From NCBI GenBank assembly GCA_012510445.1, contig JAAZIA010000045.1, forward strand, positions 1 to 64,000: DNA of 64,000 bases, written 5' to 3'. This DNA is from Bacteroidales bacterium. Lineage in GTDB: Bacteria > Bacteroidota > Bacteroidia > Bacteroidales > UBA932. Of this stretch, positions 1-32,890 are shown piece by piece; positions within the stretch are counted from its first letter, which is position 1, and every line of letters begins with the position of its first letter. Below the pieces are notes generated by a model. The model searched no databases. It saw only the letters and a program-made list of their open reading frames with translations, and was not told the origin of the DNA. A program made the position numbers and the translations under genes.

Positions 1-350
1 CGTCAAATCATGTAAAGGTAGGAGGTGATAAAAAACACCGAAAATCCTGTTGTGCGCACATACACAGGTAGTTATGCGCTTTCTTCTCAAAATAGCGACT
101 TCCTACCTTTACCGAAAAGCGTCAAATCATGTAAAGGTAGGAGGTGATAAAAAACACCGAAAACCCTGTTGTACGCATATACACAGGCAGTTATGCGCTT
201 TCTCCTCAAAATAGCGGGTTCCTACCTTTACCGAAAAACGTCAAATCATGTAAAGGTAGGAGGTGATAAAAAACACCGAAAATCCTGTTGTGCGCACATA
301 CACAGGCGGTTATGCGCTTTCTCCTCATAATAGCGGGTTCCTACCTTTAC
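1..350 (+). repeat. Repeat array A: three 119-bp-period units with inverted ends
   Basis: Three units of 101 bp (12-112, 131-231, 250-350) are separated by 18-bp spacers, giving an exact 119-bp period. Each unit starts GTAAAGGTAGGAGGT and ends TTCCTACCTTTAC, so the ends form an inverted repeat of about 13 bp. Inside lies a smaller dyad, CCTGT...ACAGG, around TGCGCACA. The array touches the left edge of the window and may continue. The same family appears in reverse orientation at 30474-30859. It is not a CRISPR array, because the spacers are near-identical and the 101-bp unit is too long. The function is unknown; a structured RNA, a terminator or a MITE-like element are all possible. Confidence 0.93.
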
Positions 351-584
351 ATATGCACGTGCCGGCGCATATCAAGAACCTGGAATGACACCAAGAACCG
401 GGAACCGGGAATGCTTCCGGCTGAAGACAATCGGTTTTAAAAGCGGAGATAATTTCTTACGGAACAATTTGACTACAGAGCCTTGCTGTTACTACTGCAA
501 AAAAAAGATTGGTGCTGCGAAGCAGCCTATTATAGGCGCCAAAGGCATTTGGCGCACTACATTCAATATAGCGCGCCAAAAGCA

Positions 585-791: not shown

Positions 792-2555
792 TTACAGGCC
801 CAGTTCTTTTTTCTGGGCTGCATCTATGCCCGAGGGGGCGTCCAGCATGACGTCGCGTCCGGCATTGTTTTTGGGGAAGGCAATGAAGTCGCGGATGCTT
901 TCCGAGCCTCCAAAGAGGGCACACCAGCGGTCAAAACCAAAGGCGATTCCGCCGTGGGGAGGCGCTCCGTAGCGGAAGGCGTCTATGATGAAAGAAAATT
1001 TTGTCTGTACTTCTTCTTCCGTCAACCCCAGCACGCGGAACATCCGTTCCTGGATGTGCGGATTGTGGATGCGGATGGAACCTCCGCCGACCTCGGTTCC
1101 GTTAATGACAAAGTCGTAGGCATTGGCGTTTACATCCATCAGGGCATGGCGGTCGTCGCTGAAAAACGCTTCCATATCTTCCGGTTTTGGGGCTGTAAAC
1201 GGATGGTGCCTGGCATAAAAACGTTCCGTTTCTTCATCCCATTCCAGCAGAGGAAAGTCATATACCCAAAGAGGGGCATACGTTCCCGGCTCTCTTAATC
1301 CCAGGCGGTCTCCCATTTCCAGACGCAAGGTTCCCAGCGCTTCTTGTGTTTTCTCACGCGGACCGCTCATAACGAGCAACAAATCGCCGTCCCCGGCACC
1401 CATCAACTCGGCCCAAGCACTCAGGGCTTGTTGGTCAAAGAACTTGTCCACAGAAGATTTGTACCCCATCACGCCTTCCTCTGTTTTAGTACAACGGACA
1501 TGTACCAGCCCCGCCGCACCTATTTGCGGGCGTTTGACCCATTCAATCAGCTGGTCCAGTTGCTTGCGCGTAGTATAAGAGGCTGCTCCCGGAACGCAAA
1601 GGCCACCCACATACTCGGCGTTACGAAAAACCGCAAACTCGGTGTCCCGCGTAAGGAAAGTAAGGTCGTGCAACAACATTTCAAAACGCGTGTCGGGCTT
1701 ATCGCTTCCGTATTGCTCCATGGCCTTTTTATAGGAAAGCCGAGGCAAGGGAGTAGGGATATCCACGTTCAGCACAGCAGCAAACAGGTGGTGGGCCAGC
1801 CCTTCAAATTGAATCAGAACGTCCTCTTGTGTTACAAAAGACATTTCGCAATCAATCTGTGTGAATTCTGGTTGGCGGTCTGCACGCAGGTCTTCGTCCC
1901 TAAAACAACGGACTATTTGAAAATATTTATCAAAACCGCCCACCATCAGCAATTGCTTAAACGTCTGCGGGCTTTGCGGTAAGGCGTAAAATTGCCCCGG
2001 ATGCATGCGTGAAGGCACTACAAAGTCGCGGGCTCCTTCCGGTGTAGATTTGATTAAAAACGGAGTCTCAATCTCAAGAAATCCGCAGTTACTTAGGTAA
2101 TTACGCACCTCTTGCGCCATGGTATGACGCAGCCGCATGGCTTGTTGCAAAGGCATCCTGCGTAAATCCAGATAACGGTACCGGGCACGCAATTCCTCTC
2201 CGCCGTCTGATTCTTCTTCCAGGGTAAAAGGTGGAACTTCAGATGTATTTAGTATTTCTATGGCAGAGAGTTCTATTTCAATGTCCCCGGTAGGTAGTTT
2301 AGGATTTTTGCTGCTACGCTCCACTACGGTTCCGTGGACAGAAAGAACAAATTCCCGCCCCAAACCCTCTGCCACTTTTTTAACTTCTGCCGGTGAATCT
2401 TCTTTTACAACAAGCTGGGTAATGCCGTATCTGTCTCTTATATCAATAAAAGTCATCCCTCCCAATTTTCGTATCCGTTGTATCCATCCGGCTAGCTGAA
2501 CCTGAAGGCCTGTATGGGAAAGATTCAATTCTCCGCAAGTGTGATTTCTGTACAT
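792..2555 (-). CDS. aspS: Aspartyl-tRNA synthetase
   Basis: Class II aminoacyl-tRNA synthetase that charges tRNA-Asp in the cytoplasm. The 587-aa length is normal for the bacterial type. An N-terminal OB-fold anticodon-binding domain (about residues 1-105, with [11 protein letters not shown]) is followed by the catalytic core. Class II motif 2 is [18 protein letters not shown] at 218-235, and motif 3 is GIAFGFDRW at about 536-544. The stretch of about 290-420 between them fits the bacterial GAD insertion. The ATG at 2555 lies 18 nt after a TACCTTTG box. The gene is divergent from thyA. Whether it also charges tRNA-Asn cannot be told from the sequence. Confidence 0.97.
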
Positions 2556-6622: not shown

Positions 6623-7960
6623 ATGAAGCGTGACGAGTTTTCAGGATTTTTTGGAGTCCTGGTAGCCACAGTAGGTTCTGCTGTGGGATTGGGTAATTTA
6701 TGGCGTTTCCCTTACCTGGTTGGTCAGAATGGAGGCGCCGCCTTTATTTTGATTTACCTGGCCTTTGTGCTGATAGTCTGTATGCCCATTATTGTGTCTG
6801 AATTTATCATCGGGCGCAGAACTAACGCCAATACAGTCAAAGCTTTTCAAATTTTGGCACCGGGAACTCCCTGGAGCATTGTGGGGATTGTGGGAGTGGT
6901 GGCTGCGCTGGCCATTCTGGCTTTTTATACGGTAGTGGGAGGGTGGACTTTTGATTACTTGGTACGATCTGTAATGTACGTTTTTTCAAAACCCGACTTG
7001 TCTTCTTTGGAACAGCAGTTTACCCAAATGGTAACGTCTCCGGTGCGTCCTATTCTATGGACCATACTTTTTATGGGAGTAAATGCTTTTATAGTCATGT
7101 GCGGTATAAAGAAAGGTATTGAAAAATACTCCCGTATTATGATGCCTGTATTGTTTGTTATGGTAGTCATGCTGGTCATTCGTTCGCTCACATTGGAAGG
7201 AGCCCGGGAAGGGTTGGAATTTCTATTCAGACCGGATTTTTCCAAAATAAACACTAAAGTTGTCTTGGCCGCTTTAGGGCAGGCTTTTTTCTCTTTAAGC
7301 TTGGGTATGGGGTGTCTGATTACGTATGGATCTTACATTCCCAAACAAGAAAACTTAACTAAGTTGGCTTTTTCAACAGGCATTGCAGATACGTTGTTTG
7401 CCATATTGGCAGGTATAGCCATTATGCCGGCCGTATTTGCTTTTGGGATTTCACCGGAAGAAGGCCCTGGCCTGGTTTTTATAGTATTGCCCCGGATTTT
7501 TGCACAGATTCCTTTGGGCAATGTCTTTGCAGTAATATTCTTTGCCATTCTGCTCATCGCAGCCATAACGTCTGTTATATCGCTTATGGAAGTAGTAACG
7601 GCCTATATTTCGGAACGGTTTACCATAAAAAGAAAAATTACGGTAGCCATTGTCTCTGTTTTCGTTACCGTTTGTGCCTCTTTCAGTTCGCTATCGCAGG
7701 GAGTGTTGCAAGAGGTGAAAGTTTTTGGAAAAACCATTTTTGATTTTTTTGATCACCTTTCTGCTAACATCCTGCTTCCCTTGGGAGGATTATCTATAGT
7801 TATTTTTATAGGCTGGTATCTGAAAAAAGAAGTGGTGTACGACGAGTATACAAACCAGGGCACCTTAAAAGGCACCCTGTTCAATGCGTGTTATTTTATC
7901 ATTCGTTACATAGCTCCCGTAGCGATTGCTGTGGTATTTCTGGATCTTATCTTACGGTAA
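6623..7960 (+). CDS. Sodium-dependent transporter, SNF/NSS family
   Basis: An inner-membrane symporter of the neurotransmitter:sodium symporter family; bacterial members such as LeuT import amino acids with Na+. The 445 aa are typical for bacterial members and are nearly all hydrophobic helices. The first helix carries the family hallmark VGLGNLWRFPYLVGQNGG at about 21-38, which lines the sodium and substrate sites. The substrate cannot be assigned. The stop codon overlaps the 3' end of the convergent BACON-LRR gene by 9 bp. Confidence 0.93.
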   Translation: MKRDEFSGFFGVLVATVGSAVGLGNLWRFPYLVGQNGGAAFILIYLAFVLIVCMPIIVSEFIIGRRTNANTVKAFQILAPGTPWSIVGIVGVVAALAILAFYTVVGGWTFDYLVRSVMYVFSKPDLSSLEQQFTQMVTSPVRPILWTILFMGVNAFIVMCGIKKGIEKYSRIMMPVLFVMVVMLVIRSLTLEGAREGLEFLFRPDFSKINTKVVLAALGQAFFSLSLGMGCLITYGSYIPKQENLTKLAFSTGIADTLFAILAGIAIMPAVFAFGISPEEGPGLVFIVLPRIFAQIPLGNVFAVIFFAILLIAAITSVISLMEVVTAYISERFTIKRKITVAIVSVFVTVCASFSSLSQGVLQEVKVFGKTIFDFFDHLSANILLPLGGLSIVIFIGWYLKKEVVYDEYTNQGTLKGTLFNACYFIIRYIAPVAIAVVFLDLILR

Positions 7961-10900
7961 TCTTACGGTAACTCCCAGATGCCAATTTCCGTTGTATCCT
8001 AAGTCTTCCAGGGTAGTTGCCCGGCCGGTATTTTCCTGACTCGAGCCCATTAAACCTATTAGATTTCCTCCCGGAACAGGCGGCCCTTCACCGTCTGTCA
8101 TCAACACCGGGTGTAGTTCTTGTTGAGTTAAGACCAAATTCAACAGCAGGCTGTGTCCTTCTTCCAGCTTGATCACATAACTTTCTGTAAAGAAATCTTT
8201 GACACTGTCCCACTTGCCCTCTTCTTTAATACCATCAATCATAATTCGTTTAAAATTATGTTCACTTTGCGAAACAAGGTTTGTTCTGCCCGGGATCACG
8301 TTTTCTATCATGATAACGTGTTTGGACAAATTTTCAATGAAGTCTATAAACTGCATGGGGTCAACAGACTGAGTAGAGCCGGTGTCTGCCTTTGAAATAA
8401 TAAGAAAGGCTTCAAAAATCTCTTCAAGCTGGTCATCGCTGTTAGCAGCAATCAAAATAGAAGCTGTAGTATCTGCCGGACAAAGCATGATGTTCTCCAA
8501 AATCTTTCCTTTAAATTGACGAACGTACTGATTCTCCATATGAACCAAGGCAACTACATGGTCGTTGGGTGTGGGCGATGCAAACGGTCTGATACCTGCG
8601 TTAGGCTTGAATAAAGACATGGTTTGCGATGTAGAGGGCAAAGTGGAGATATTCTCTATGGCAATAGTATTCTTGCCCTCCGGTACGGTAATGATGGTAT
8701 AAAAATCTTTAAGAATGCCGTAAGCTTCTGTTATGCGCACTCCATACGTGCCGGGTTCAATATCTTCAATCAAGACCTGGCCGGAGAAAGAACTTTGCCT
8801 GTCGTATTCTATTCCGGAAGCTTGCGCGTTGGCTGCCAAAACAGGGCGCGGTGTTGCCCCGGGTAGGGAACGTTTACCGGAACGCAACAGGTGTAAGTTT
8901 TTTTGAACTTCTGCACGGTAAGGCTTCAATAGGTGCGACAACCATTGGGCAGCCGATTGCAATACATCGGTCTGCGAGGGATCAATACGCAGCGACGTTT
9001 TTTTAGGAGCGGCCTGTTTTGCTGTACGTTGGGCTGTGTAGTGTGGCTGTGTTTCTTCCGATAGCTGCTTAAGGTACACTTTGGCATATTGCACCGGTTC
9101 GTTTTTGTCGTCTGTAAGAACTAAGGTGAGCCGGTTGTACAAAGGAGTAGTTACGGTTAATTCCGGACTGTAAGCTGTTCCCGCATTGCTTGTGGCATAA
9201 GCCTTCACGGTATACAGGGTGTTTTCATCAAGGTCCTTGAAAGAAACCTGATATGTTCCCGGACCGCTTCCCATCCTGCGACTAGTAGTATTTAATATGA
9301 TGCCGCGGTCTGTTACCGGGTGGCTCCCCTGTCTTTCTACCGTAGCAGAAACGCTAATTTCATTGTACAACAACTTGCTGATTGTTATTTCACTTACGGT
9401 AGGCAAGACGTTTTCCACATCCAGAAAAACGTTGTTCTGCTGGCTGCGGATGTAGTGCGTGTTTGAGTTGTCTTTGTAGGCATCCCATTGCTCCCAACAC
9501 GGATGTTCAATCAAGGCTGCCGGAATAGTATGCGTGAGCTGGTTTCCGTAAACAGACAAGCGTTCAGTGACTATGGGCAAACCGGCCCAAGACAGGGGAA
9601 TGCCTCCTGTGAAATTACATTCGTGAAGGTACAGAGCCAGGCTTTGGGCGCTTGTGGTTAACTCTCCCAAAGCTTGCGGCAAGTCGCCTTTCAAGTGGGG
9701 GTTGTTATTGATTTTAAACGTATGCAGGTGTTTCCATCCGCTGAAAATTTCAGAAGGAAGGGACTTGCTCAACTTTGCATGCGAGATATCAAAGCTTTCC
9801 AGGGCAATCATTCCTGCCCATTCTTTGGGAACGGTTCCGTCTATTTCTGTATGGTCCAACTGCAGGTGGGTTAATTTTTTTAAATTCCCCAAAGAGGCAG
9901 GCAGAGGTCCTTCCAATCCCGTTTCCGAGGCTTTCAACAAGGTTAGGTTGGGGAGCTTTTCCAGTTGCTTTGGTAAAGTTCCTGTAACCTTGGGGTTGTT
10001 GCTTACATCAATGGTCTTTAGAGAAGTTAGTTCTCCAAGGCATGAGGGTAGCTTCCCTTTCAATCCGAATCCGCTCAGGTGTAATCCTACAATAGCACTA
10101 TCTGCTACAGTTACGCCCTCCCATTGGTCTATATCCAGATCTGATCCCCAATGTTTCCCTTTTGTCCAGTGCACTCCGTCTAAAGCATCATACAAAGTCA
10201 TAAGACATTCGCGTTGGGCGTCCGGTACTTGTTCCAATTCCAGAAACAAGCCGTCTTGTTGGGTACGAATACCGTGTATCTCTTGGTCTTGTTCTTGTTC
10301 CACCCATCTGTCCCACTTATCTTCTGTCCAGGACGGGTGTCCCTGAATAGATAAAGGAACTTGTTCTGTAAGTTTGTTGCCGTAAACGAACAGTTCGTTA
10401 CAAACGTCCGGAAGGTTGCCCCATTCTTCCGGAATGCCTCCTTCAAAGCTGCAATTGTGCCAATGCAATTTCAAGGAAGAGGCGCTAGTTTCCAGTTGGC
10501 CCAAGTCTTTAGGTAAAGAGCCTTCTAAATGGGGGTTATCGTTAATTTTAAACGTATGCAGGTGTTTCCACCCGTTGAAAATTTCAGAAGGAAGGGAGCC
10601 CTTCAGTTTTGCATGCGAAATGTCAAAGCTTTCCAGGGCGGTCATTCCTGCCCATTCTTTGGGAAGCGGACCTTCTATGTTGTTATGGCTAAGCAACAAC
10701 ACCTTTAGCTTGTTGAGGTTGCCCAAAGATCCGGATAAAGGCCCTTCCAGGCCGGTGGTCTCGGCTTTTAAGGTTTCCAAGGCTGTCAGATTACCCAGTT
10801 CCCCGGGCAATGCTCCTGTCAATTCCGGATTGGAGCTTACGTCCAGGTCTCTCAGGTCTGCCAGGCTTCCCAAGCCGGCAGGAAGAACACCTTTTAAAAG

Positions 10901-11659
10901 GAAGCCACTTAGATCCAGCTCCGTTAATTTTTCCTCTTCCAGGGTAACTCCGCCCCAGGTGTCAATGGATTGATTGGTGTTCCAGTGGGTTTTCTTGGTG
11001 TCTTTCCAGTTTGCTCCGTCCAGGGTGTTGTACAGTTCCATAAGAACGGAACGGAGTTCGCTTTCTTTTTGTTCAAAAACAAAAGTTTGTGTCTGGGCAA
11101 TTCCGGCATTGTCCCGGACTTCTACTTTTCCTGAACGAGGAGCTCCCGGATTGGAAGCTATCAGGAAATCCAGAGTGGCCGTGGACAATGCTCGGGTACC
11201 CGTATATTGGATCCAAGATTTGGCAGAGGCCTCTACTTCAACGGAATAATTTGTATTGTATTCCAATTGCAGGGAGTATGAACCGCCCCGGGCATCTACC
11301 ACGTTGGTTCCTTTTAGAATTAATGTATTGCGTGCACTTTGTGTTATAGAGACGGAAGTCTGCATGGTTCCGCTTTTAACCGTTAGTGTTGCTGTCACGT
11401 CAGAGGAAGAGGTGGCGGCAACGGCTTTCAGTTGTAACGTGGTATTCCCCGATCCGGAAGACGGGCTTACAGAGAAGCCTTTACCGGATACAGAGGCAGT
11501 CCAGGAAATGCTGTTGGTAGAAAGCTGGATGTTTTGTACGCCGCCTTCCTGTGGGAAAGATACCGTTTGCGGTTCTGCTTTTATAAACGGTTCATCTTCA
11601 CAACCGGTTGTAAACAACAATGCAGAAACAATAATAAAAGACGTAATAATTCTTTTCAT
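7952..11659 (-). CDS. Surface lipoprotein with BACON and leucine-rich repeat domains
   Basis: A 1235-aa lipoprotein. The signal peptide ends in a lipobox with Cys20 (LLFTTGC). The residues after it, EDE, are acidic, a feature linked in Bacteroidota to export to the cell surface. Two BACON-like beta-sandwich domains (about 30-200) are followed by two leucine-rich repeat blocks (about 202-450 and 480-735). Each block opens with a segment like LYNTLDGANW and has plant-type repeats such as LTELDLSGFLLKGVLP. A fibronectin-III-like domain (about 750-840) and a C-terminal part I do not recognise complete it. The LRR blocks share nearly identical DNA. A shorter-LRR relative lies at 45166-47733. Binding of a protein or glycan ligand is likely; the ligand is unknown. 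Confidence 0.87.
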   Translation of the reverse strand: MKRIITSFIIVSALLFTTGCEDEPFIKAEPQTVSFPQEGGVQNIQLSTNSISWTASVSGKGFSVSPSSGSGNTTLQLKAVAATSSSDVTATLTVKSGTMQTSVSITQSARNTLILKGTNVVDARGGSYSLQLEYNTNYSVEVEASAKSWIQYTGTRALSTATLDFLIASNPGAPRSGKVEVRDNAGIAQTQTFVFEQKESELRSVLMELYNTLDGANWKDTKKTHWNTNQSIDTWGGVTLEEEKLTELDLSGFLLKGVLPAGLGSLADLRDLDVSSNPELTGALPGELGNLTALETLKAETTGLEGPLSGSLGNLNKLKVLLLSHNNIEGPLPKEWAGMTALESFDISHAKLKGSLPSEIFNGWKHLHTFKINDNPHLEGSLPKDLGQLETSASSLKLHWHNCSFEGGIPEEWGNLPDVCNELFVYGNKLTEQVPLSIQGHPSWTEDKWDRWVEQEQDQEIHGIRTQQDGLFLELEQVPDAQRECLMTLYDALDGVHWTKGKHWGSDLDIDQWEGVTVADSAIVGLHLSGFGLKGKLPSCLGELTSLKTIDVSNNPKVTGTLPKQLEKLPNLTLLKASETGLEGPLPASLGNLKKLTHLQLDHTEIDGTVPKEWAGMIALESFDISHAKLSKSLPSEIFSGWKHLHTFKINNNPHLKGDLPQALGELTTSAQSLALYLHECNFTGGIPLSWAGLPIVTERLSVYGNQLTHTIPAALIEHPCWEQWDAYKDNSNTHYIRSQQNNVFLDVENVLPTVSEITISKLLYNEISVSATVERQGSHPVTDRGIILNTTSRRMGSGPGTYQVSFKDLDENTLYTVKAYATSNAGTAYSPELTVTTPLYNRLTLVLTDDKNEPVQYAKVYLKQLSEETQPHYTAQRTAKQAAPKKTSLRIDPSQTDVLQSAAQWLSHLLKPYRAEVQKNLHLLRSGKRSLPGATPRPVLAANAQASGIEYDRQSSFSGQVLIEDIEPGTYGVRITEAYGILKDFYTIITVPEGKNTIAIENISTLPSTSQTMSLFKPNAGIRPFASPTPNDHVVALVHMENQYVRQFKGKILENIMLCPADTTASILIAANSDDQLEEIFEAFLIISKADTGSTQSVDPMQFIDFIENLSKHVIMIENVIPGRTNLVSQSEHNFKRIMIDGIKEEGKWDSVKDFFTESYVIKLEEGHSLLLNLVLTQQELHPVLMTDGEGPPVPGGNLIGLMGSSQENTGRATTLEDLGYNGNWHLGVTVRLP
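9711..9830. repeat. Copy 1 of a 120-bp internal duplication in the LRR gene
   Basis: This stretch is nearly identical to 10545-10664, with an offset of 834 bp (278 codons). It encodes the segment WKHLHTFKIN and the LRR around it in each block. The DNA-level similarity points to recent duplication or gene conversion between the two LRR blocks. Confidence 0.85.
10545..10664. repeat. Copy 2 of a 120-bp internal duplication in the LRR gene
   Basis: Partner of 9711-9830. Both contain AAACGTATGCAGGTGTTTCC, GAAAATTTCAGAAGGAAGGG and TTCCTGCCCATTCTTTGGGA. Most differences are single substitutions; the block is collinear. Confidence 0.85.
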
Positions 11660-15470: not shown

Positions 15471-17624
15471 ATGAAAACTTATACAACAGAACAAATTCGC
15501 AACGTGGTTCTGATGGGAAATACCAAATCCGGAAAAACCACTCTTGCAGAATCCATGATGCTGGAAGGCAAAGTGATTGACCGTCGTGGAACCGTTGAAG
15601 CCAAAAACACCGTATGCGACAATACGGAAATTGAACAATTGTATCAGAGGTCCATTTATCCTACACTCTTTTATACAGAGTACGGAGATTTTAAACTGAA
15701 CTTTATAGATACACCGGGCTCTGACGATTTCATAGGCGGTCTTATATCGGCTTTCCGGGTGGCAGACTCGGGCGTAATGCTTGTTAACGGACAGCATGGC
15801 GTAGAGGTGGGAACAGAAATTTTTTCCCGCTATGCAGAACAACACAACAAACCGCTTTTTCTGGCCATAAGCCAATTGGATCACGAAAAAGCCAATTGGG
15901 ATGCCAGTCTGGACTCCCTTAAAGAAGCTTTTGGAAGCAAAGTATGTCCGCTCCAGTTTCCTGTAGAAACGGGACAGGCATTTGATTCTTATGTAGATGT
16001 GCTTTCCATGAAAATGTACCGCTTTAAAGACGACAGTGGTAATCGCGAAGAGCTGGACATTCCGGCAGAACTGACAGAGCAGGCAGAGGAACTTCATGCA
16101 GAGTTGATTGAGCGCGCTGCAGAAGCAAGCGAAGAATTGATGGAATTATTCTTTGAAACAGGAAGCCTCACACCGGAGCAAATCACACAAGGTTTGACTT
16201 TGGGATTTAGCAAATGCGAGATCATGCCTTTGGTTATTGTTTCCGGGAAAAAAGACATTGGCGTAAAACGCCTCTTGGAGCTCATAACCCTTATAGCTCC
16301 CCATCCGGGGCAGACAAGCGCCAAAACCGTTTCCGGAGAAGAAGTTCCTTGTGATGTAAACGGACCGGCCTCGCTGTATGTTTATAAAACCAGTCAAGAG
16401 CAACACTTGGGAGATATTGCTTATTTCCGTGTAATGTCGGGGAAAATCACAGAAGCCCTGGACTTGGTTAATGTTAATAACGGTAGCAGGGAAAGGATAT
16501 CGGCACTCTACGTGGCAGCCGGAAAAAAACGTGAAAAGGTTACACACCTGGTTGCCGGCGATATGGGTTGTACCGTTAAGCTTAGAAGTGCTAAATCTAA
16601 CCATACTCTTAATGCAGCCGGAAAAGATTGGGAATTTGAGCCCATTACATTCCCGCCTGCAAAGTTCAGAACAGCCATAAAGGCCAAGTCTGACAAAGAC
16701 GACGAAAAATTGGGAGAAATCCTGAACAAGGCTTCTGCAGAAGACCCCACCATTGTGGTAGAATATTCTAAAGAGCTTAAACAAATTATTGTTAGCGGAC
16801 AGGGAGAGCACCACATCAATACACTCAAATGGCATATCAACAATACACACAAAATGGAAGTGGATTTGCTGGCTCCCAAGATTCCTTACAGAGAAACCAT
16901 TACAAAAATGGCAGCTTCCAGCTACCGCCACAGAAAACAGTCGGGCGGTGCAGGGCAATTTGGTGAAGTCCATATGCTAATAGAGCCTTACGTAGAAGGG
17001 GCTCCGGAAAATACCCGCTTTAAGGTAGACGGAAAAGAATTGGTGCTTTCCATTCGAGGACGTGAAGAACACACTATGGAGTGGGGTGGTAAACTGGTTT
17101 ACTACAACTGTATTGTAGGAGGTTCTATTGACGGCCGTTTTATGCCGGCCATTCTTAAGGGGATTATGGAAAGAATGGAAGAAGGGCCTTTGACAGGGTC
17201 GTATGCCCGTGATATCAATTGCTATGTGTATGACGGTAAAATGCACCCGGTTGATTCTAACGAAATTTCCTTTAAACTGGCAGGACGTAATGCGTTCCGG
17301 GATGCTTTCAGGAAAGCAGGACCCAAGATTATGGAACCCATCTATTTAGTAGAGGTATTGGTGCCGTCGGATTGTATGGGTGATGTAATGAGTGACCTGC
17401 AGAACCGTAGGGCATTGATAGAAGGCATGAGCAGTGAAAAAGGATTTCAGGTGCTTAGGGCCAAAGTGCCCTTGGCAGAACTGAATAAATATTCAACCAC
17501 ACTCAGCTCACTTACTTCCGGTAGGGCAAGCTTTACCATGACACTTGCAGAATACACACAAGTTCCTGCTGATATTCAGGAAAAACTGTTGAGAGAATAC
17601 GAAGAAGAAGAGAAAGACGAATAA
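15471..17624 (+). CDS. EF-G paralog, EF-G2 type, with degenerate GTPase motifs
   Basis: A translation elongation factor G relative of 717 aa with the full domain set: G domain, domain II, and IV-V with [15 protein letters not shown]. The G motifs depart from canonical EF-G. G1 reads GNTKSGKTT, the switch I RGIT is RSIY, G3 reads DTPGSDDF with Ser84 in place of the catalytic histidine, and the G4 NKxD reads SQLD. This pattern fits the Bacteroides EF-G2 paralog, reported to support translocation without GTP hydrolysis during starvation and gut colonisation. I infer the same class. The canonical fusA is not in this window. lolD and trmN6 follow on the same strand. Confidence 0.88.
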
Positions 17625-17640
17625 CCGTTTTTCCGTAACC

Positions 17641-18291
17641 ATGATCAAAGCAGATTATATTACAAAGTCATTCGGCAGCGTGCAGGTACTGAAAGGAGTT
17701 TCTCTGGAAGTAGCACCTGCCGAAGTGCTTTGTATAACCGGGGCCAGTGGTGCCGGTAAAACTACTTTTCTACAAATCATAGGAACCCTTTTAAGGCCCG
17801 ATATGGGACAGGTCTGGATTGCAGACACTCCCGTTATGGAGCTTAAGAAAGACCGGTTGGCAGACTTCAGAAACAAACATATTGGGTTTGTTTTTCAGTT
17901 TCATCACTTGCTTCCGGAATTTACAGCGTTGGAAAATGTGTGCATTCCGGGATTGATTGCCAAAGATCCCGCAGATAAGGTGCGGACCAGAGCAAAAGAG
18001 CTTTTGGATTTCTTAGGTATGGGACATAGGATGGAACATAAACCGTCCGAGCTGAGCGGAGGAGAACAGCAACGGGTTGCCGTTGCCCGAGCGCTTGTAA
18101 ACCGTCCTAAAGTATTGCTGGCCGATGAGCCTTCGGGGAATTTAGATACGCGCAACAAAGAGGAGTTGCACCGCTTGTTCTTTCAGTTGCGTGATACCTA
18201 CCGGCAAACCATCGTTCTTGTTTCCCACGACCCGTCACTGGCAACGCTGAGCGACCGCAGCCTGATCATGAGTGATGGCCTTATTTTGTGA
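17641..18291 (+). CDS. lolD: ABC transporter ATP-binding protein, LolD-like
   Basis: The ATPase of a MacB/LolD-class exporter. Complete motifs are present: Walker [10 protein letters not shown] (34-42), Q-loop [18 protein letters not shown], signature LSGGEQQR, Walker [13 protein letters not shown] and the switch histidine in LVSHD. In the Lol system such a subunit energises release of lipoproteins from the inner membrane. The assignment to LolD rests on the [13 protein letters not shown] segment and on the many lipoproteins nearby; no LolC/E permease is encoded here. It starts 16 bp after the EF-G2 gene and overlaps trmN6. Confidence 0.85.
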
Positions 18292-19078
18292 CGTGGAACC
18301 ATTCCGTTTCAAATATTTTTCTCTACAACATCACCGTTCGGCCATGCGGCTGACCACAGACAGCGTGCTGTTAGGCGCTTGGGTACGGACAGGAGCCACA
18401 GCTCAAGCTGTTGTCCATATCACAACTCCCCAAACGGTCTTGGATGTGGGGACAGGTTGCGGTATTCTGGCACTCATGATGGCGCAGCGCTTTCAGCAAG
18501 CCCGTATCTATGCCATAGATATAGACGAACTTTCTGTGCGGGAGGCAAGAGAAAACGTCAGTCTTTCTCCCTGGCCGGAACGTATCTGCATTTTTGAAGG
18601 GGATTTTAGGAGTTTTGTTTTGCCCCATACGTATGATCTGATCATTACCAATCCGCCTTATTTTCGCGGGGCATTACTAAGTTCTTATGCACGGCGTACC
18701 AGAGCACGTCATAGCGACGACAGCAGCATAACGCATGAAGAGTTGCTCAAAGGGGCGGTACACAAGTTGACAGAAGATGGAGTTTTTGCGCTGATTTTGC
18801 CTGCAGATAGAGAAGTTGGTTTTCTTTCCATGGCCCTTAAAGGTTCGGTTCCCCTTTATCCGTCAAGAATTACACGGGTAACTGCCGGCAGCGCCCTAAG
18901 CTGTAACAACAGCACCCTTTGGAGCACTACGGATGAAGAGCCTACACGCGTTTTATTGGAGCTGACAAAAAAACAAACAACGCCCCGGATAGAGACGTTG
19001 CCGATGTATGATAAAGGCAGGGGTAAATACAGCCCGCAATATATGGCGCTTATAAAGGATTTTTACCTTTGGGCTTGA
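18275..19078 (+). CDS. trmN6: tRNA1(Val) adenine(37)-N6-methyltransferase
   Basis: A SAM-dependent methyltransferase of the YfiC/TrmN6 family, which makes m6A37 in tRNA-Val. It has the SAM-binding motif [17 protein letters not shown] and the N6-adenine catalytic motif NPPYF in [13 protein letters not shown]. The segment [15 protein letters not shown] is typical of the family's N-terminus. The track begins at a GTG (18272), but the ATG directly after it at 18275 is preferred. The start overlaps the end of lolD by 17 bp, implying translational coupling. 267 aa. Confidence 0.9.
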
Positions 19079-27191: not shown

Positions 27192-28460
27192 ATGGATGTT
27201 ACTGGAATTAAGCAAAGATTTGAAATTATTGGAAACAGCCCTTTATTGGACAGGGCGCTGGATATAGCTGCTCAGGTAGCCACTACGGATCTCTCTGTTT
27301 TGGTTACCGGTGAAACGGGTGTTGGAAAAGAATTTATTCCTAAGATTATACACTCCTACAGCATAAGAAAACACGGTCACTATTTTGCTGTCAACTGCGG
27401 AGCCATTCCGGAGGGCACTATAGATTCGGAATTGTTTGGGCATTTAAAAGGATCTTTTACCGGAGCTCACGAAGACAGGAAAGGGTATTTTGAAGCAGCA
27501 GACAAAGGCACGCTTTTTCTTGACGAGGTGGCAGAACTACCCTTATCTACGCAAGTACGCCTGTTGAGAGCTTTGGAAACGGGAGAGTTTATACGGGTGG
27601 GTTCTTCTACGGTACAGAAGACAGATGTACGCGTAATAGCTGCTACCAACGTGAATCTGCACCATGCCATTAAGTCGGGGAAATTTAGAGAAGATCTTTA
27701 TTATAGATTAAATACGGTGCCTATTACCGTTCCGGCATTGAGGGAACGTCCCGGAGACATTCACTTGTTATTCCGGAAGTTTGCGGCAGACTTTGCAGAA
27801 AAGTACAAAATGCCGGTCATTCGTCTTACTGACCAGGCACGTAACGTATTGGAACATTACCGATGGCCGGGCAACGTAAGGCAATTGAAGAACGTAGCTG
27901 AACAACTGAGCGTTTTGGAACAAAACAGAACGGTTACGGCAGAAACCTTACAACGATACCTGCCGGAAGACAGCCCCCTGCACTTGCCGGTGGTATACGA
28001 CAAAGCCGCCCGCGGCAGGGACGACTTTATTTCCGAGAGAGACATTCTCTACAAAATTCTCTTTCAACTGCGTTCAGAAATGGACGACTTGAAAAAAAAG
28101 ATGGACCTGATACAGCAGACAGATTTGACACAACGTACAGACCTGATGCAACGTACAGACCTGATGCAACGTACAGATCTGATGCAACAGAAAGATTTGT
28201 ATCCTGCGTCTGTTTCCGGTACTATGTTATCCCATTCGGTACACGAGCACAACAATGGTGAAGAGGAAGTGACGGAAGGAGAAATCCTGCCCATAGAAAC
28301 GGTAGAAGAAAAACAAGATCTTTCTTTGAATTCTTTAGAGAAAGAATTAATCACAAAAGTACTCCAAAAGAACAAAGGACACCGCAAATCCACGGCTAAA
28401 GAACTGGGCATTGCAGAACGAACTTTGTACCGCAAAATCAAAGAATATGAAATTGAATAA
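27192..28460 (+). CDS. Sigma-54-dependent transcriptional activator without a receiver domain
   Basis: A 422-aa bacterial enhancer-binding protein. The AAA+ domain starts almost at once: Walker A GETGVGKE (about 39-46), the sigma-54 contact loop GSFTGA (canonical GAFTGA) and Walker B GTLFLDEVAELPL. A Fis-type helix-turn-helix ends the protein (HRKSTAKELGIAERTLYRKI). No N-terminal sensory domain is present, so its activity may be set by its level. Between the domains lies a run of 18-bp in-frame repeats (TDLMQR units). First gene of an operon with lptE and secG. Confidence 0.93.
   Translation: MDVTGIKQRFEIIGNSPLLDRALDIAAQVATTDLSVLVTGETGVGKEFIPKIIHSYSIRKHGHYFAVNCGAIPEGTIDSELFGHLKGSFTGAHEDRKGYFEAADKGTLFLDEVAELPLSTQVRLLRALETGEFIRVGSSTVQKTDVRVIAATNVNLHHAIKSGKFREDLYYRLNTVPITVPALRERPGDIHLLFRKFAADFAEKYKMPVIRLTDQARNVLEHYRWPGNVRQLKNVAEQLSVLEQNRTVTAETLQRYLPEDSPLHLPVVYDKAARGRDDFISERDILYKILFQLRSEMDDLKKKMDLIQQTDLTQRTDLMQRTDLMQRTDLMQQKDLYPASVSGTMLSHSVHEHNNGEEEVTEGEILPIETVEEKQDLSLNSLEKELITKVLQKNKGHRKSTAKELGIAERTLYRKIKEYEIE
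28101..28190. repeat. 18-bp coding minisatellite in the sigma-54 activator
   Basis: Five 18-bp units resembling ACAGACCTGATGCAACGT lie in tandem (28101-28118 to 28173-28190) with a partial sixth. They encode a TDLMQR hexapeptide in the linker between the AAA+ domain and the helix-turn-helix. Confidence 0.9.
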
Positions 28461-28962: not shown

Positions 28963-29805
28963 ATGGATACTTCAGTTTTTTACAAACAATACGTAAACGC
29001 AGCACCGCAAGAGCTGGCCCCCAACGGATATGTACTTCAAGACCTGGTTCGTCGTTACCCTTGGTTCTCCCTAGGGTACCTCCTGTTATTCAAAGCGCTC
29101 TGCGGCATGGGTGGTGACGCCAGTCTTTCCCAATCAGAAAAAACAGCCGCCTATATCTACTCACGAAAGAAACTGTATTTCATACTGCAACAAACCAGAA
29201 AGGATTTTGAAACACTTGCCGAGGAAGAGTTTTTCACCCTGGACGTCCCAGAGCAAGAGCCCATTTTAGACACAGGAGCCGCCGCAGACAAAACCCTATC
29301 CGCCGCCGCAGACAAAACCCTGGCCGCCGCCGCAGACAAAACCCTGGCCGCCGCCGCAGACAAAACCCTGGCCGCCGCCGCAGACAAAACCCAAAGCCGA
29401 AGTATCGGGACGGCTTCTCTTTCCGATGCAGGTCCTCTGGAATTTGTTTTGGACATTCCAAAGAATCGTACTTTTTATCCAGGAGCGGATTATTTCGGAA
29501 AAGAACAAATGGCTTCTGTCTCGTTAGATGTAACTACGCCCATAGATCGTTTTATAAGTGAGAACCCCCGGTTTACGCAAGCACTCAAAAGAGCGGGAGA
29601 GAATCTGGACACCTCAGAACAAGATGCACCGCCGGCACTCAAAGACGATGAATTTGTAACAGAAACCCTTGCAAAGATTTACGCTGCGCAAGGTTACCAT
29701 AAATTAGCCATTGACTGTTACGCAAAACTTATTTTGCTATATCCGGAAAAAAGCGCTTACTTTGCGTCCCTTGTAGAAGAAATCAAACAAAAATCCAATA
29801 ATTAA
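28963..29805 (+). CDS. Conserved hypothetical protein with a C-terminal TPR-like helix pair
   Basis: A 280-aa soluble protein of unknown function. The N-terminal part (PNGYVLQDLVRRYPWFSLGY) recurs in Bacteroidales genes between lptE and secG, as far as I recall. The C-terminal helices LAKIYAAQGYHKLAIDCYAK fit a tetratricopeptide repeat. Five 24-bp repeats give an AAADKTLA tract at about residues 106-145, which would form a flexible linker. It is 12 bp from lptE and 2 bp from secG. Confidence 0.8.
   Translation: MDTSVFYKQYVNAAPQELAPNGYVLQDLVRRYPWFSLGYLLLFKALCGMGGDASLSQSEKTAAYIYSRKKLYFILQQTRKDFETLAEEEFFTLDVPEQEPILDTGAAADKTLSAAADKTLAAAADKTLAAAADKTLAAAADKTQSRSIGTASLSDAGPLEFVLDIPKNRTFYPGADYFGKEQMASVSLDVTTPIDRFISENPRFTQALKRAGENLDTSEQDAPPALKDDEFVTETLAKIYAAQGYHKLAIDCYAKLILLYPEKSAYFASLVEEIKQKSNN
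29278..29397. repeat. 24-bp coding minisatellite in the lptE-secG hypothetical gene
   Basis: Five 24-bp units, GCCGCCGCAGACAAAACCCT plus 4 bp, run from 29278 to 29397. Units 2 to 4 are identical, a sign of recent copy-number change. They encode AAADKTLA. Confidence 0.93.
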
Positions 29806-30149: not shown

Positions 30150-30270
30150 ACTTTAGATTCAATCTAGCGCGCCAGAGTTTTCAGCCACTGCTGTATTTCT
30201 CTGGCAACTAGCCATTTGCTATTTTTGCAAAAAGGTTGGCGCGTTAGATTGAATCTAACTGCGCCAAAAC
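30150..30270 (+). repeat. 121-bp repeat, copy 1
   Basis: Begins ACTTTAGATTCAATCTAGCG and ends CTAACTGCGCCAAAAC. Its ends form an inverted repeat built on TTAGATTCAATCTA plus GCGCGCCA. Copy 2 at 30865-30985 is in the same orientation and has the same length, with roughly 15 differences by eye. Confidence 0.9.
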
Positions 30271-30446: not shown

Positions 30447-30473
30447 CTTCTTTTTAACGCAGCATGTGCATAT

Positions 30474-30859
30474 GTAAAGGTAGGAAGTCACTGTTTTCAA
30501 GAAAAGAGGTCTAACTGTCTGTATATGCGCACATAGCAAGATCGGCGTCAGTTTTTCTTACCTCCTACCTTTACACGATTTGCTGTTTTCCTGTAAAGGT
30601 AGGAAGTCACTGTTTTTTGAGAAAAGTGTATAATTACTTGATTTTGTGCGCATAACAAGGACAGGTGTGTTTTTTCTTACCTCCTACCTTTACACGATTT
30701 GCTGTTTTCCTGTAAAGGTAGGAAGTAGTTGTTTTTTGAGAAAAGTGTACAACTGCTTGATTTTGTGCGCATAACAAAGGCAGGTGTATTTTTTCTTACC
30801 TCCTACCTTTACACGATTTGCTGTTTTCCTGTAAAGGTAGGAAGTAGTTGTTTTTTGAG
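30474..30859 (-). repeat. Repeat array B: three full and one partial 119-bp-period units
   Basis: Units of 101 bp at 30474-30574, 30593-30693 and 30712-30812 are separated by 18-bp spacers (ACGATTTGCTGTTTTCCT). A fourth unit starts at 30831 and breaks off at about 30859. The reverse complement aligns with array A nearly without gaps, ends and spacer included, so the family is the same and the orientation opposite. Confidence 0.93.
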
Positions 30860-30864
30860 TAGGC

Positions 30865-30985
30865 ACTTTAGATTCAATCTAGCGCACCAGAATTTTCAAC
30901 CACTGCTGCATTTCTCTTGCAACCAGCTACTTGCGGTTTTTGCAAAAAAAATTGGCGCGTTAGATTCAATCTAACTGCGCCAAAC
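30865..30985 (+). repeat. 121-bp repeat, copy 2
   Basis: Direct repeat of 30150-30270. It replaces the rest of the fourth array B unit, so it may have entered or recombined there. It runs into the 10-bp tandem repeat. Confidence 0.9.
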
Positions 30986-31029
30986 TGCGCCAAACTGCGC
31001 CAAACTGCGCCAAAACTGCGCAAAACTGC
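30974..31029. repeat. 10-bp tandem repeat, about five copies
   Basis: The unit CAAACTGCGC repeats at 30981, 30991 and 31001 and continues as CAAAACTGCG and CAAAACTGCA. It is an expansion of the right end of the 121-bp repeat (AACTGCGCCAAA) and ends about 20 bp from the stop codon of the PspC gene. Confidence 0.9.
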
Positions 31030-31048: not shown

Positions 31049-32890
31049 TTAATCAAAGCCTTTAATGGTGACTTTGCGGGAGCTCGATTTACCAAATTCG
31101 TGGTAGATGGGTTTGCGTACGATGATCACTTGGTTAGCGGGAACGTACAATCTTAGGGAGCCTATGGTGCCGTCCCAAGGATGGGCTTTGTTAATCTGGT
31201 ACGAGGGGATGGTCATCACATTGCCGGTTAAATGAAAAGCGGGTGTTTGTTTTTCTGCCGTTTCCAGTGCATCTGATTTTGATTGACCAAAGGAGCGAGA
31301 TTTCAGCAATACAGACGGAGTCTCAAACTGGGACTGTCGTACAACGGTTACAGGCGGAAATATGACCACATTGGGATCTTTTCTTTTGCCTTCAATCCAT
31401 CCCAGTTTGTAAACCGCGTTGTCTGCTTCTATCCAGTAGCGCTCAAACAGAAAATCTTCCCTTGCATCCAGGTCTATGAATAAGGTGTCTGAGGTTAGTT
31501 CAATAGGTATGCGTTCTTCTACAGAGGCGTGCTTTTTGAAATGTGAAGCTCCACGGGAGCCGGTTACAATCAGACCAACCAGTGCGACAAGCCAAGTGAA
31601 AAACATAATACCGCCAATCCATCGAGGGCCTCTTATGTTGAATACCAGAACAGAGCCGAGGTATAAGAAGCCCAGTACGGGAATAAGAACCGTGAGCATA
31701 CCAAACACCTTGAACCAGAAGATGCTACCTGTAAAAGCCACTAGGTTAAACAGTGCAGTAGGAAGGAAATTCAGGGCAAATCCCGTAACGGAAAAGGCCA
31801 GAACCAAGCTTATTAATACAGCAGAGCTGCCTATCAGAAAAAACAACCCTACAATCACTGCAACTACTCGTAGTAAAATATACCACGCCTTATTTCTGCC
31901 GGAAGAGCTATACGAAGGATGACGGTAAGAATCGTAGAGGCTGTGTGATGTTCCATAGCTTTGTGACGGCTCGAAGCTGCGAGGTGCACGAGAGCTGCGA
32001 GGTGCACGAGAGCTGCGAGGTGCACGAGAGCTGCGAGGTGCACGAGAGCTGCGAGGTACACGAGAGCTGCGAGGTGCACGAGAGCTGTATGCTGCACGAG
32101 AGCTGCGAGGTACACGAGAGCTGCGTGGTGCACGAGAGCTGCGTGGTACACGAGAGCTGTATGTTGCACGAGAGCTGTGTGCTGCACGAGAGCTGTGTGC
32201 TGCACGAGAGCTGTGTGTTGCACGAGAGCTACGCGATGCTCGGGCAGAGCTGCGTGTCCTGTCAGCTCTGCTTACACGCTGTAACCCTCTTGCAGACAGC
32301 GGTTCCCCGCGCATGGCATATTTTTCTTCTACGGTGCGTGCTGCCGGTATGAGGATCCACATAATCAAATAAATTATAAAGAAGAACCCTCCAAAGTTGA
32401 AAGTAAAAGTACCCCGACCAGAGATAAATTCACCGTAGTGAACAACAGAAGGTAAAAAGAGCAAAACAGCATATACCAGGCGGACAATCACCACGTCTAT
32501 ATTAAAATAGGCAGCCAGTCCCGAACAAACTCCGCCAAGCACTTTGCGGTCTATGTTCCGATACAATTTCTTAGGTGGAAAGGGGGTATCGTGGTATGTA
32601 CTGCCAGTAAAATCAGAGGCTCCGCTTTCTTCTTCTATAACTTCCAGCGGTCCCATAATTTCTAAAACTTGGTTTACTATGTCTTTAGATACTACATGTT
32701 CTCCGGCATGGGTGCGTTCAGAAAGAAGCTCGGCAATACGCTCTTCTATTCCGTCCACTATTTCCATCCCTCCTTCCTTGCCGGAATAGTACCTGCGTAA
32801 ATGGTCCAGATATACTTTTAGAGTGCTATAGGCATCTTCCGACAGCGTAAAAGGTATCTTATTGATACTTACCCTGATTACTTTTTTCAT
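31049..32890 (-). CDS. Large PspC-domain membrane protein with an arginine-serine repeat
   Basis: A 613-aa membrane protein. The N-terminal region (about 1-80) is shared with the smaller PspC protein upstream. A PspC domain follows (KKLYRNIDRKVLGGVCSGLAAYF) with a transmembrane helix ending WILIPAARTVEEKY. Then comes a basic tract of about 14 hexapeptides, SSRAPR and variants (about residues 215-305). Three or four further helices and a soluble C-terminal domain complete it. PspC domains occur in membrane-stress systems. It overlaps the PadR gene by 4 bp. Confidence 0.85.
   Translation of the reverse strand: MKKVIRVSINKIPFTLSEDAYSTLKVYLDHLRRYYSGKEGGMEIVDGIEERIAELLSERTHAGEHVVSKDIVNQVLEIMGPLEVIEEESGASDFTGSTYHDTPFPPKKLYRNIDRKVLGGVCSGLAAYFNIDVVIVRLVYAVLLFLPSVVHYGEFISGRGTFTFNFGGFFFIIYLIMWILIPAARTVEEKYAMRGEPLSARGLQRVSRADRTRSSARASRSSRATHSSRAAHSSRAAHSSRATYSSRVPRSSRAPRSSRVPRSSRAAYSSRAPRSSRVPRSSRAPRSSRAPRSSRAPRSSRAPRSFEPSQSYGTSHSLYDSYRHPSYSSSGRNKAWYILLRVVAVIVGLFFLIGSSAVLISLVLAFSVTGFALNFLPTALFNLVAFTGSIFWFKVFGMLTVLIPVLGFLYLGSVLVFNIRGPRWIGGIMFFTWLVALVGLIVTGSRGASHFKKHASVEERIPIELTSDTLFIDLDAREDFLFERYWIEADNAVYKLGWIEGKRKDPNVVIFPPVTVVRQSQFETPSVLLKSRSFGQSKSDALETAEKQTPAFHLTGNVMTIPSYQINKAHPWDGTIGSLRLYVPANQVIIVRKPIYHEFGKSSSRKVTIKGFD
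31976..32230. repeat. 18-bp coding minisatellite in the large PspC gene
   Basis: About 14 units of 18 bp like AGCTGCGAGGTGCACGAG encode SSR-A-P-R hexapeptides on the minus strand. The four units nearest 31980 are the most alike. The antisense strand is open as well and would read HESCEV repeats. Confidence 0.93.

Follow-up and report, generated by a model that had tools for sequence, protein, structure and literature searches.

The 119-bp-period tandem arrays described here are very probably non-coding, non-autonomous repeats of the BIME/REPIN type whose mobility relies in trans on a RAYT (REP-associated tyrosine transposase, of the HUH/Y1 type) encoded on contig C43 of the same genome. They extend the known BIME/REPIN kind by a lineage-specific form and do not represent a novel class of element. 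What appeared to be an orphan repeat can now be studied as one half of a tractable RAYT/repeat pair. Because the genus has three or more end types and this one genome has two or more RAYTs with separate repeats, the system offers good material for study of RAYT/repeat co-evolution and of tandem array formation. The questions of a new family and of a 30-kb inversion switch are largely settled, and the answer is negative in both cases.

The window is the whole stretch of 64,000 nucleotides that was analysed, bases 1-64000 of contig C30 of a 1.7-Mb draft genome (G000; 51 contigs, 86.7% complete), which its gene content suggests to be from Bacteroidota. All copy numbers given for G000 are from searches of the assembly contigs.

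Two arrays of a dispersed repeat family

The window contains two tandem arrays, A and B, with the following units and neighbours.

1..351, minus strand: array A, consisting of three 101-bp units and array-specific spacers and truncated by the contig end
11-113, 130-232 and 249-351: units of array A, each with one flanking base per side
792..2555, minus strand: aspS, 3' end facing array A, convergent with its neighbour on contig C27
29808..30146, plus strand: secG, 3' end facing array B
30153..30265, no strand assigned: left-hand neighbour of array B, one unit of another inverted-repeat family (TTAGATTCAATCTAGCGCGCCA...TTGGCGCGTTAGATTGAATCTAA; the second family)
30473..30575, plus strand: array B unit 1 (GTAAAGGTAGGAAGT ... 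ACCTCCTACCTTTAC), model match E 4.1e-18
30576..30591, plus strand: array B spacer CGATTTGCTGTTTTCC, identical at 3/3 spacer positions of array B
30592..30694, plus strand: array B unit 2, model match E 3.3e-19
30711..30813, plus strand: array B unit 3, model match E 5.5e-18
30830..30859, plus strand: array B unit 4, truncated, a 30-bp fragment matching the first 30 bp of unit 3 at 30/30 positions
30868..30981, no strand assigned: second copy of the second inverted-repeat family, right of array B and beside truncated unit 4
31049..32890, minus strand: PspC-domain protein gene, 3' end facing array B

The initial annotation had reported two arrays of 119-bp period in opposite orientation. Both statements were confirmed, and the positions agree to within one base, with three full units in A and three plus a truncated unit in B. 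TRF gave a period of 119 with 94-95% matches and zero indels in both arrays, far above chance, and array A units start 119 bp apart. Unit 4 of array B is cut off beside the second repeat family. That array A starts at base 1 reflects the start of the contig. The array carries on at contig C27, the first units of which are near-identical to those of A, and the C27 gene next to the array adjoins aspS in 12/12 congeners. The two arrays had also been said to share the same unit. They do belong to one family, but A and B are only about 72% identical and their longest exact stretch in common is 16 bp.

Searches of the full genome and of congeners uncovered a dispersed family of about 31 units in G000, spread over about 13 arrays (contigs C3, C14, C15, C16, C23, C24, C25, C27, C28, C30, C43 and C46). 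A and B are real, but they are two arrays among these 13 or so and not a lone pair. The arrays are intergenic as judged by ORF analysis only, the overlapping ORFs being short and likely spurious. Several arrays end at contig ends, that is, at assembly break points. C16 and C43 have near-identical units at their contig ends, as do C27 and array A, and the assembler therefore broke inside longer arrays. Across arrays, one-base departures from the 119-bp period are rare. Inside an array the spacer varies little or not at all, and it differs from array to array; mean unit identity is 81% within arrays versus 64% between them. Tandem modules with array-specific repeated spacers are a trait of BIME/REPIN arrays, and these values bear out the earlier proposal that unit plus spacer was amplified as a whole.

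Most arrays lie beside gene 3' ends. The aspS/serine-hydrolase and secG/PspC genes are convergent pairs and the C15 array likewise sits between convergent ORFs, the array on C24 being a divergent exception. A DUF805 RNA motif (Rfam RF03081, above its gathering score) was seen near one array, at L003 2157-2224 (G000:C24).

Several other features of the window were recorded. A tandem 10-bp repeat, AACTGCGCCA, lies at 30973-31029 on the edge of the second repeat family. A 1235-aa protein is encoded at 7952-11659 on the minus strand, and its best NCBIfam matches are the leucine-rich-repeat effector models XopAC, XopAE and XopL; all score far under cut-off and probably reflect merely common leucine-rich repeats. 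Short tandem repeats of 18 or 24 bp, multiples of three, occur within ORFs at 31975-32230, 28131-28188, 29278-29392 and 4235-4320, which suggests low-complexity protein segments expanding by slippage.

Structure of the repeat unit

In the 101-bp unit an inverted end pair (GTAAAGGTAGGARGT) encloses a centre of 65-70 bp. Consecutive units follow head-to-tail with an 18-bp spacer. The arms match as inverted repeats at 12-15 of 16 positions, and the unit length falls within the range of inverted-pair BIME/REPIN units (~70-110 bp). The whole unit folds back on itself (mean z -2.9). In a canonical REP each half-unit would form a 20-50-nt hairpin; no half-unit hairpin above chance was found among 29 units compared with shuffles (mean DNA-fold z of -0.15 for left and -0.30 for right halves). 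Because the half-units fold no better than shuffled sequences, we do not class the ends as canonical REPs, and the repeats are nearer to the TIR or atypical RAYT-linked sort. GTAG or GTGG occurs in the ends of all three repeat types of the genus (see below) and in most G000 units, with GTCG and GTTG as variants.

Covariation analysis gave a consensus stem lacking compensatory changes and hence no support for structure at the RNA level. The arrays had no Rfam match above a gathering score and no match among plasmid records. Upon searching the GTDB 220 contigs, from which G000 is possibly absent, the exact-end pattern gave five matches, none of which on inspection had a tandem array or the unit centre; the one in Bacteroidales lies inside coding sequence. 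As these five matches have neither array nor centre, the repeat type is lineage-restricted within this collection, which may omit G000. Three other element classes were considered and rejected: integron attC sites (no GTTRRRY core), CRISPR (spacers constant, not unique) and bridge-RNA elements (no IS110-type gene seen adjoining the arrays).

A RAYT gene bracketed by arrays

The initial annotation had stated that no transposase is near. This holds within the window, but on C43 a RAYT gene is bracketed by arrays of the same family, placed as follows.

17484-17703: upstream array
17790-18695: RAYT ORF, 301 aa
18699 to contig end: downstream array, beginning 3 bp past the RAYT stop codon

The sole NCBIfam match of the C43 ORF is REP_Tyr_transpos (REP-associated tyrosine transposase), with an E value of 1.9e-6 and a score below the curated cut-off (27.8 versus 80 bits). 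The same model is matched by 17 of 18 homologs, and Pfam Y1_Tnp matches the ORF with an E value of 0.0015. The HUH histidines His50 and His52 (NHFH) and Tyr107, the RAYT motif residues, are invariant in the 18 homologs. A search of the PDB by sequence alone gave no meaningful match to the protein. However, the AlphaFold2 model (pLDDT 84.8, pTM 0.83) had as its best PDB fold match 4er8 (E 5.6e-6), which is E. coli TnpA-REP, a RAYT bound to a REP hairpin, and the fold matches that follow, with E values up to 0.001, are all IS200/IS605-type transposases. The C43 gene is thus assigned as a RAYT at the levels of profile (below cut-off) and predicted fold. Its bracketing by genome-dispersed repeats is also characteristic of RAYT genes. 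The protein has a long C-terminal extension, the final part of which may be helix-turn-helix-like (the model has helices at residues 262-274 and 279-285). Pfam HTH_psq was found in 4 of the 18 homologs, the C43 protein itself having no HTH profile match. Its Y motif is YVLRN[AG]VHH, and the W-motif tryptophan is lacking. The 3'-terminal 15 bp of the RAYT gene recur beside other arrays, with 12/15 matches at C28 and 11/15 at C43a and C25 (P about 3e-5 to 2e-4); the others are weaker.

A second RAYT, on contig C2 (L110), is tightly bracketed by the TTAGATTCAATCTAGCGCGCCA family at 7710-7817 and 8696-8802. This is the family that also flanks array B, and it was absent from the ~199 kb of congener loci searched. 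Hence each of these two RAYTs has its own repeat family, the C43 RAYT having the GTAAAGGTAGG arrays and the C2 RAYT the TTAGATTCAATCTAGCGCGCCA family. A palindrome, TGGCGCACTA...TAGTGCGCCA, was seen by inspection near a third RAYT at 1234-2091 (G000:C18, L076), and its core is also present in the window at 550 and 30398; the two may constitute a third RAYT/repeat pair.

Repeat type follows the RAYT across the genus

The comparison set was composed of 12 congeners (G001, G002 and so on) plus G000. RAYT orthologs, 55-67% identical, are present in seven of the 12 congeners. Where flanks could be read, the gene mostly adjoins homologous but species-specific inverted units of ~100 bp. These have three types of end: GTAAAGGTAGG (G000 and G007), GGGAGGTGGTAAGT (G004, G001 and G012) and GAAGGGTAGTRAGT (G008 and G009). 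In DNA searches, each type turned up chiefly in those genomes whose RAYT it adjoins. Matches to the G008 type numbered 15 in G008, 16 in G009 and 2 in G000, and those to the G004 type numbered 25, 19 and 21 in G004, G001 and G012, with seven or fewer elsewhere. Repeats of the window type were found in G000 only, and the G007 type gave hardly any additional copies.

In six of the seven congeners with an ortholog, a model built from G000 units found 7-41 matches. These frequently stand in tandem, 119-131 bp apart, and some palindromic units are counted twice because they match both strands. Zero matches were found in four of the five congeners lacking a RAYT ortholog. The two exceptions are G003, which has a partial ortholog and in which repeats were not detected (its genome is fragmentary and 79% complete), and G010, which has three repeats and no ortholog. 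The association of RAYT and repeats by presence or absence gave p = 0.07 for the 12 congeners and 0.03 with G000 included. Type-specific pairing is the stronger argument, the presence/absence association being modest.

Near-empty insertion sites and the 30-kb segment

The aspS gene and the serine-hydrolase gene of C27 are adjacent, convergent and 5-118 bp apart in all 12 congeners, the site that array A and other repeats fill in G000. The secG-PspC gap, the site of array B, is 8-30 bp in G001, G004, G005 and G009 and 276 bp in G008. In six other congeners (L128-L130, L134, L136 and L137) it has an extra ~1.2 kb. By eye this stretch resembles an intact glycine C-acetyltransferase-like gene; it is absent from the site in G000, G001, G004, G005, G008 and G009. 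For the C15 array no clean base-exact empty site was obtained, the congener neighbourhood being too diverged.

Recombination between A and B had been proposed to invert the intervening 30 kb. This finds no support, given an exact match of at most 16 bp. In addition, aspS and the PspC gene are ~28-31 kb apart and in the same relative strand as in G000 in all seven congeners that have both on one contig (G001, G002, G004-G007 and G010), and no fixed inversion of the segment was seen against these seven. The arrays are probably tolerated passengers of the RAYT rather than an inversion switch.

Origin and growth of the arrays

Dependence on the RAYT would proceed as follows. The enzyme would cut single-stranded DNA at unit ends and copy units to new intergenic sites, mostly beside gene 3' ends. 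A founder unit plus spacer would then be amplified in place, either by RAYT-driven rolling-circle copying or by slippage or unequal exchange, and such amplification would give near-identical units within an array and diverged units between arrays. A conceivable but rather doubtful elaboration is that a RAYT subfamily of this genus, with an HTH-like C-terminus, left the hairpin-plus-GTAG recognition of known TnpA-REP enzymes and instead recognises the 101-nt fold-back or a double-stranded end, with tandem arrays as its main product and with ends and enzyme co-diverging by species.

Array growth, as opposed to dispersal, might have been local tandem duplication via slippage or unequal exchange, with no role of the transposase in that step. 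We regard this as possible, albeit not favoured; it is a variant of the RAYT-dependent scheme, and our confidences in the two overlap. Array-specific spacers and high within-array identity are as local duplication predicts, but duplication alone leaves dispersal to ~13 sites and the RAYT linkage unexplained, and tandem arrays of similar period (119-131 bp) recur in RAYT-bearing congeners.

The arrays could also be sites kept by host selection as bidirectional terminators, mRNA 3' stabilisers or gyrase/chromosome-structuring sites, roles that have been proposed for E. coli BIMEs. The position of most arrays facing gene 3' ends, several of them between convergent genes, would fit such roles, and BIME-2 was reported to bind gyrase (cited in PMC2817692). 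However, the convergent sites of congeners do without arrays (aspS in 12/12, secG in the four with 8-30-bp gaps), array content is species-specific, and a 3'-end position is also expected once insertions into genes and promoters have been purged. We consider host selection improbable as the explanation of the arrays, although it is compatible with RAYT dependence, the two not being exclusive. The RAYT-dependent repeats probably lack a host function.

It is likewise improbable that a conventional insertion sequence of DDE type, with ends GTAAAGGTAGGA, gave rise to the units as its MITEs and that their linkage to the RAYT is a coincidence. Long terminal inverted repeats and halves devoid of a REP hairpin are MITE-like traits, but repeat type tracks the RAYT across species, arrays bracket the RAYT, and among the listed G000 end occurrences the only ORF between two nearby arrays is the RAYT. 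Moreover, by inspection a constant target-site duplication was not evident in the array flanks that were viewed. Finally, an assembly artefact, to which array A and several others might owe their position at contig ends, can be dismissed with near certainty, as array B lies well inside an assembled stretch, an 83-kb contig, and has unique sequence on both sides, units differ among themselves and homologous arrays were assembled in other congener genomes; the contig-end arrays more likely mark where the assembler stops at true repeats, with copy number underestimated.

Comparison with known systems

RAYT genes are flanked by inverted REPs, one third being directly associated with BIMEs, and a rolling-circle model has been put forward for array growth (PMC2817692). 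The recurrence of the 3'-terminal 15 bp of the C43 RAYT by other arrays resembles the capture of rayt 3' ends in BIMEs (PMC2817692). In E. coli the rayt gene has BIME-2 on both sides (PMC2817692), and the REPs of this species are hairpins whose GTAG foot is essential (PMC8266576). The G000 family differs from the E. coli system in that GTAG/GTGG is common rather than strict and in that its RAYT has the long C-terminal extension with a possibly HTH-like end. It is like the BIME-2/REPtron of TnpA-REP (y and z2 REPs) in having two inverted end kinds that alternate in tandem. In E. coli BIME-2, long and short spacers also alternate.

Pseudomonas fluorescens SBW25 has 16 clusters in which near-identical REPINs recur in tandem together with their flanks, and each of its RAYTs adjoins one REPIN type; most of its REPINs are singlets, with 431 doublets given in Table 3 (Bertels and Rainey 2011, PMC3116915). 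The present arrays share the inverted doublets, the tandem near-identical units with flanks and the RAYT adjacency. They differ in that SBW25 units are composed of hairpin REPs, whereas the halves here form no significant hairpin, and in that most units are in arrays, the total being ~31.

Large clusters of GTAG repeats frequently occur as tandem copies that take in adjoining DNA, and at TIRYT genes long inverted repeats replace the REPs (Di Nocera 2013, PMC3733652). The TIRYT/TIRtron group (PMC3733652) and TnpA-Y1 subclass 2.1 (Quentin 2018, PMC6006769) resemble our system in having long inverted repeats on either side of a RAYT relative, further repeat copies scattered as dimers or in groups, and perhaps an HTH-like C-terminus. 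In contrast to these, the G000 ends show no evident GGGGWSAS, the motif common to TIRs, and mostly carry GT[AG]G, the Y motif is YVLRN[AG]VHH rather than Y[IV]HLNP, and there is no W-motif tryptophan. TnpA-Y1 subclasses 2.4 and 2.6 occur in Bacteroidetes, and subclass 2.6 RAYTs are mostly from this phylum, with "atypical secondary structures", no GT[AG]G and a median length of 179 aa (PMC6006769). Subclass 2.6 and the C43 pair have in common a repeat structure that is weak and atypical, further copies in the genome and probably the phylum, but at 301 aa this RAYT is unlike the short subclass 2.6 proteins and most of its repeats have GT[AG]G.

The initial annotation knew of no described family with this layout. 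However, clusters of tandem REPINs or BIMEs in which the flanks are repeated too and to which a RAYT is linked have been described (PMC3116915, PMC2817692, PMC3733652), and the layout, linkage and pairing seen here correspond to those of RAYT-dependent BIME/REPIN arrays.
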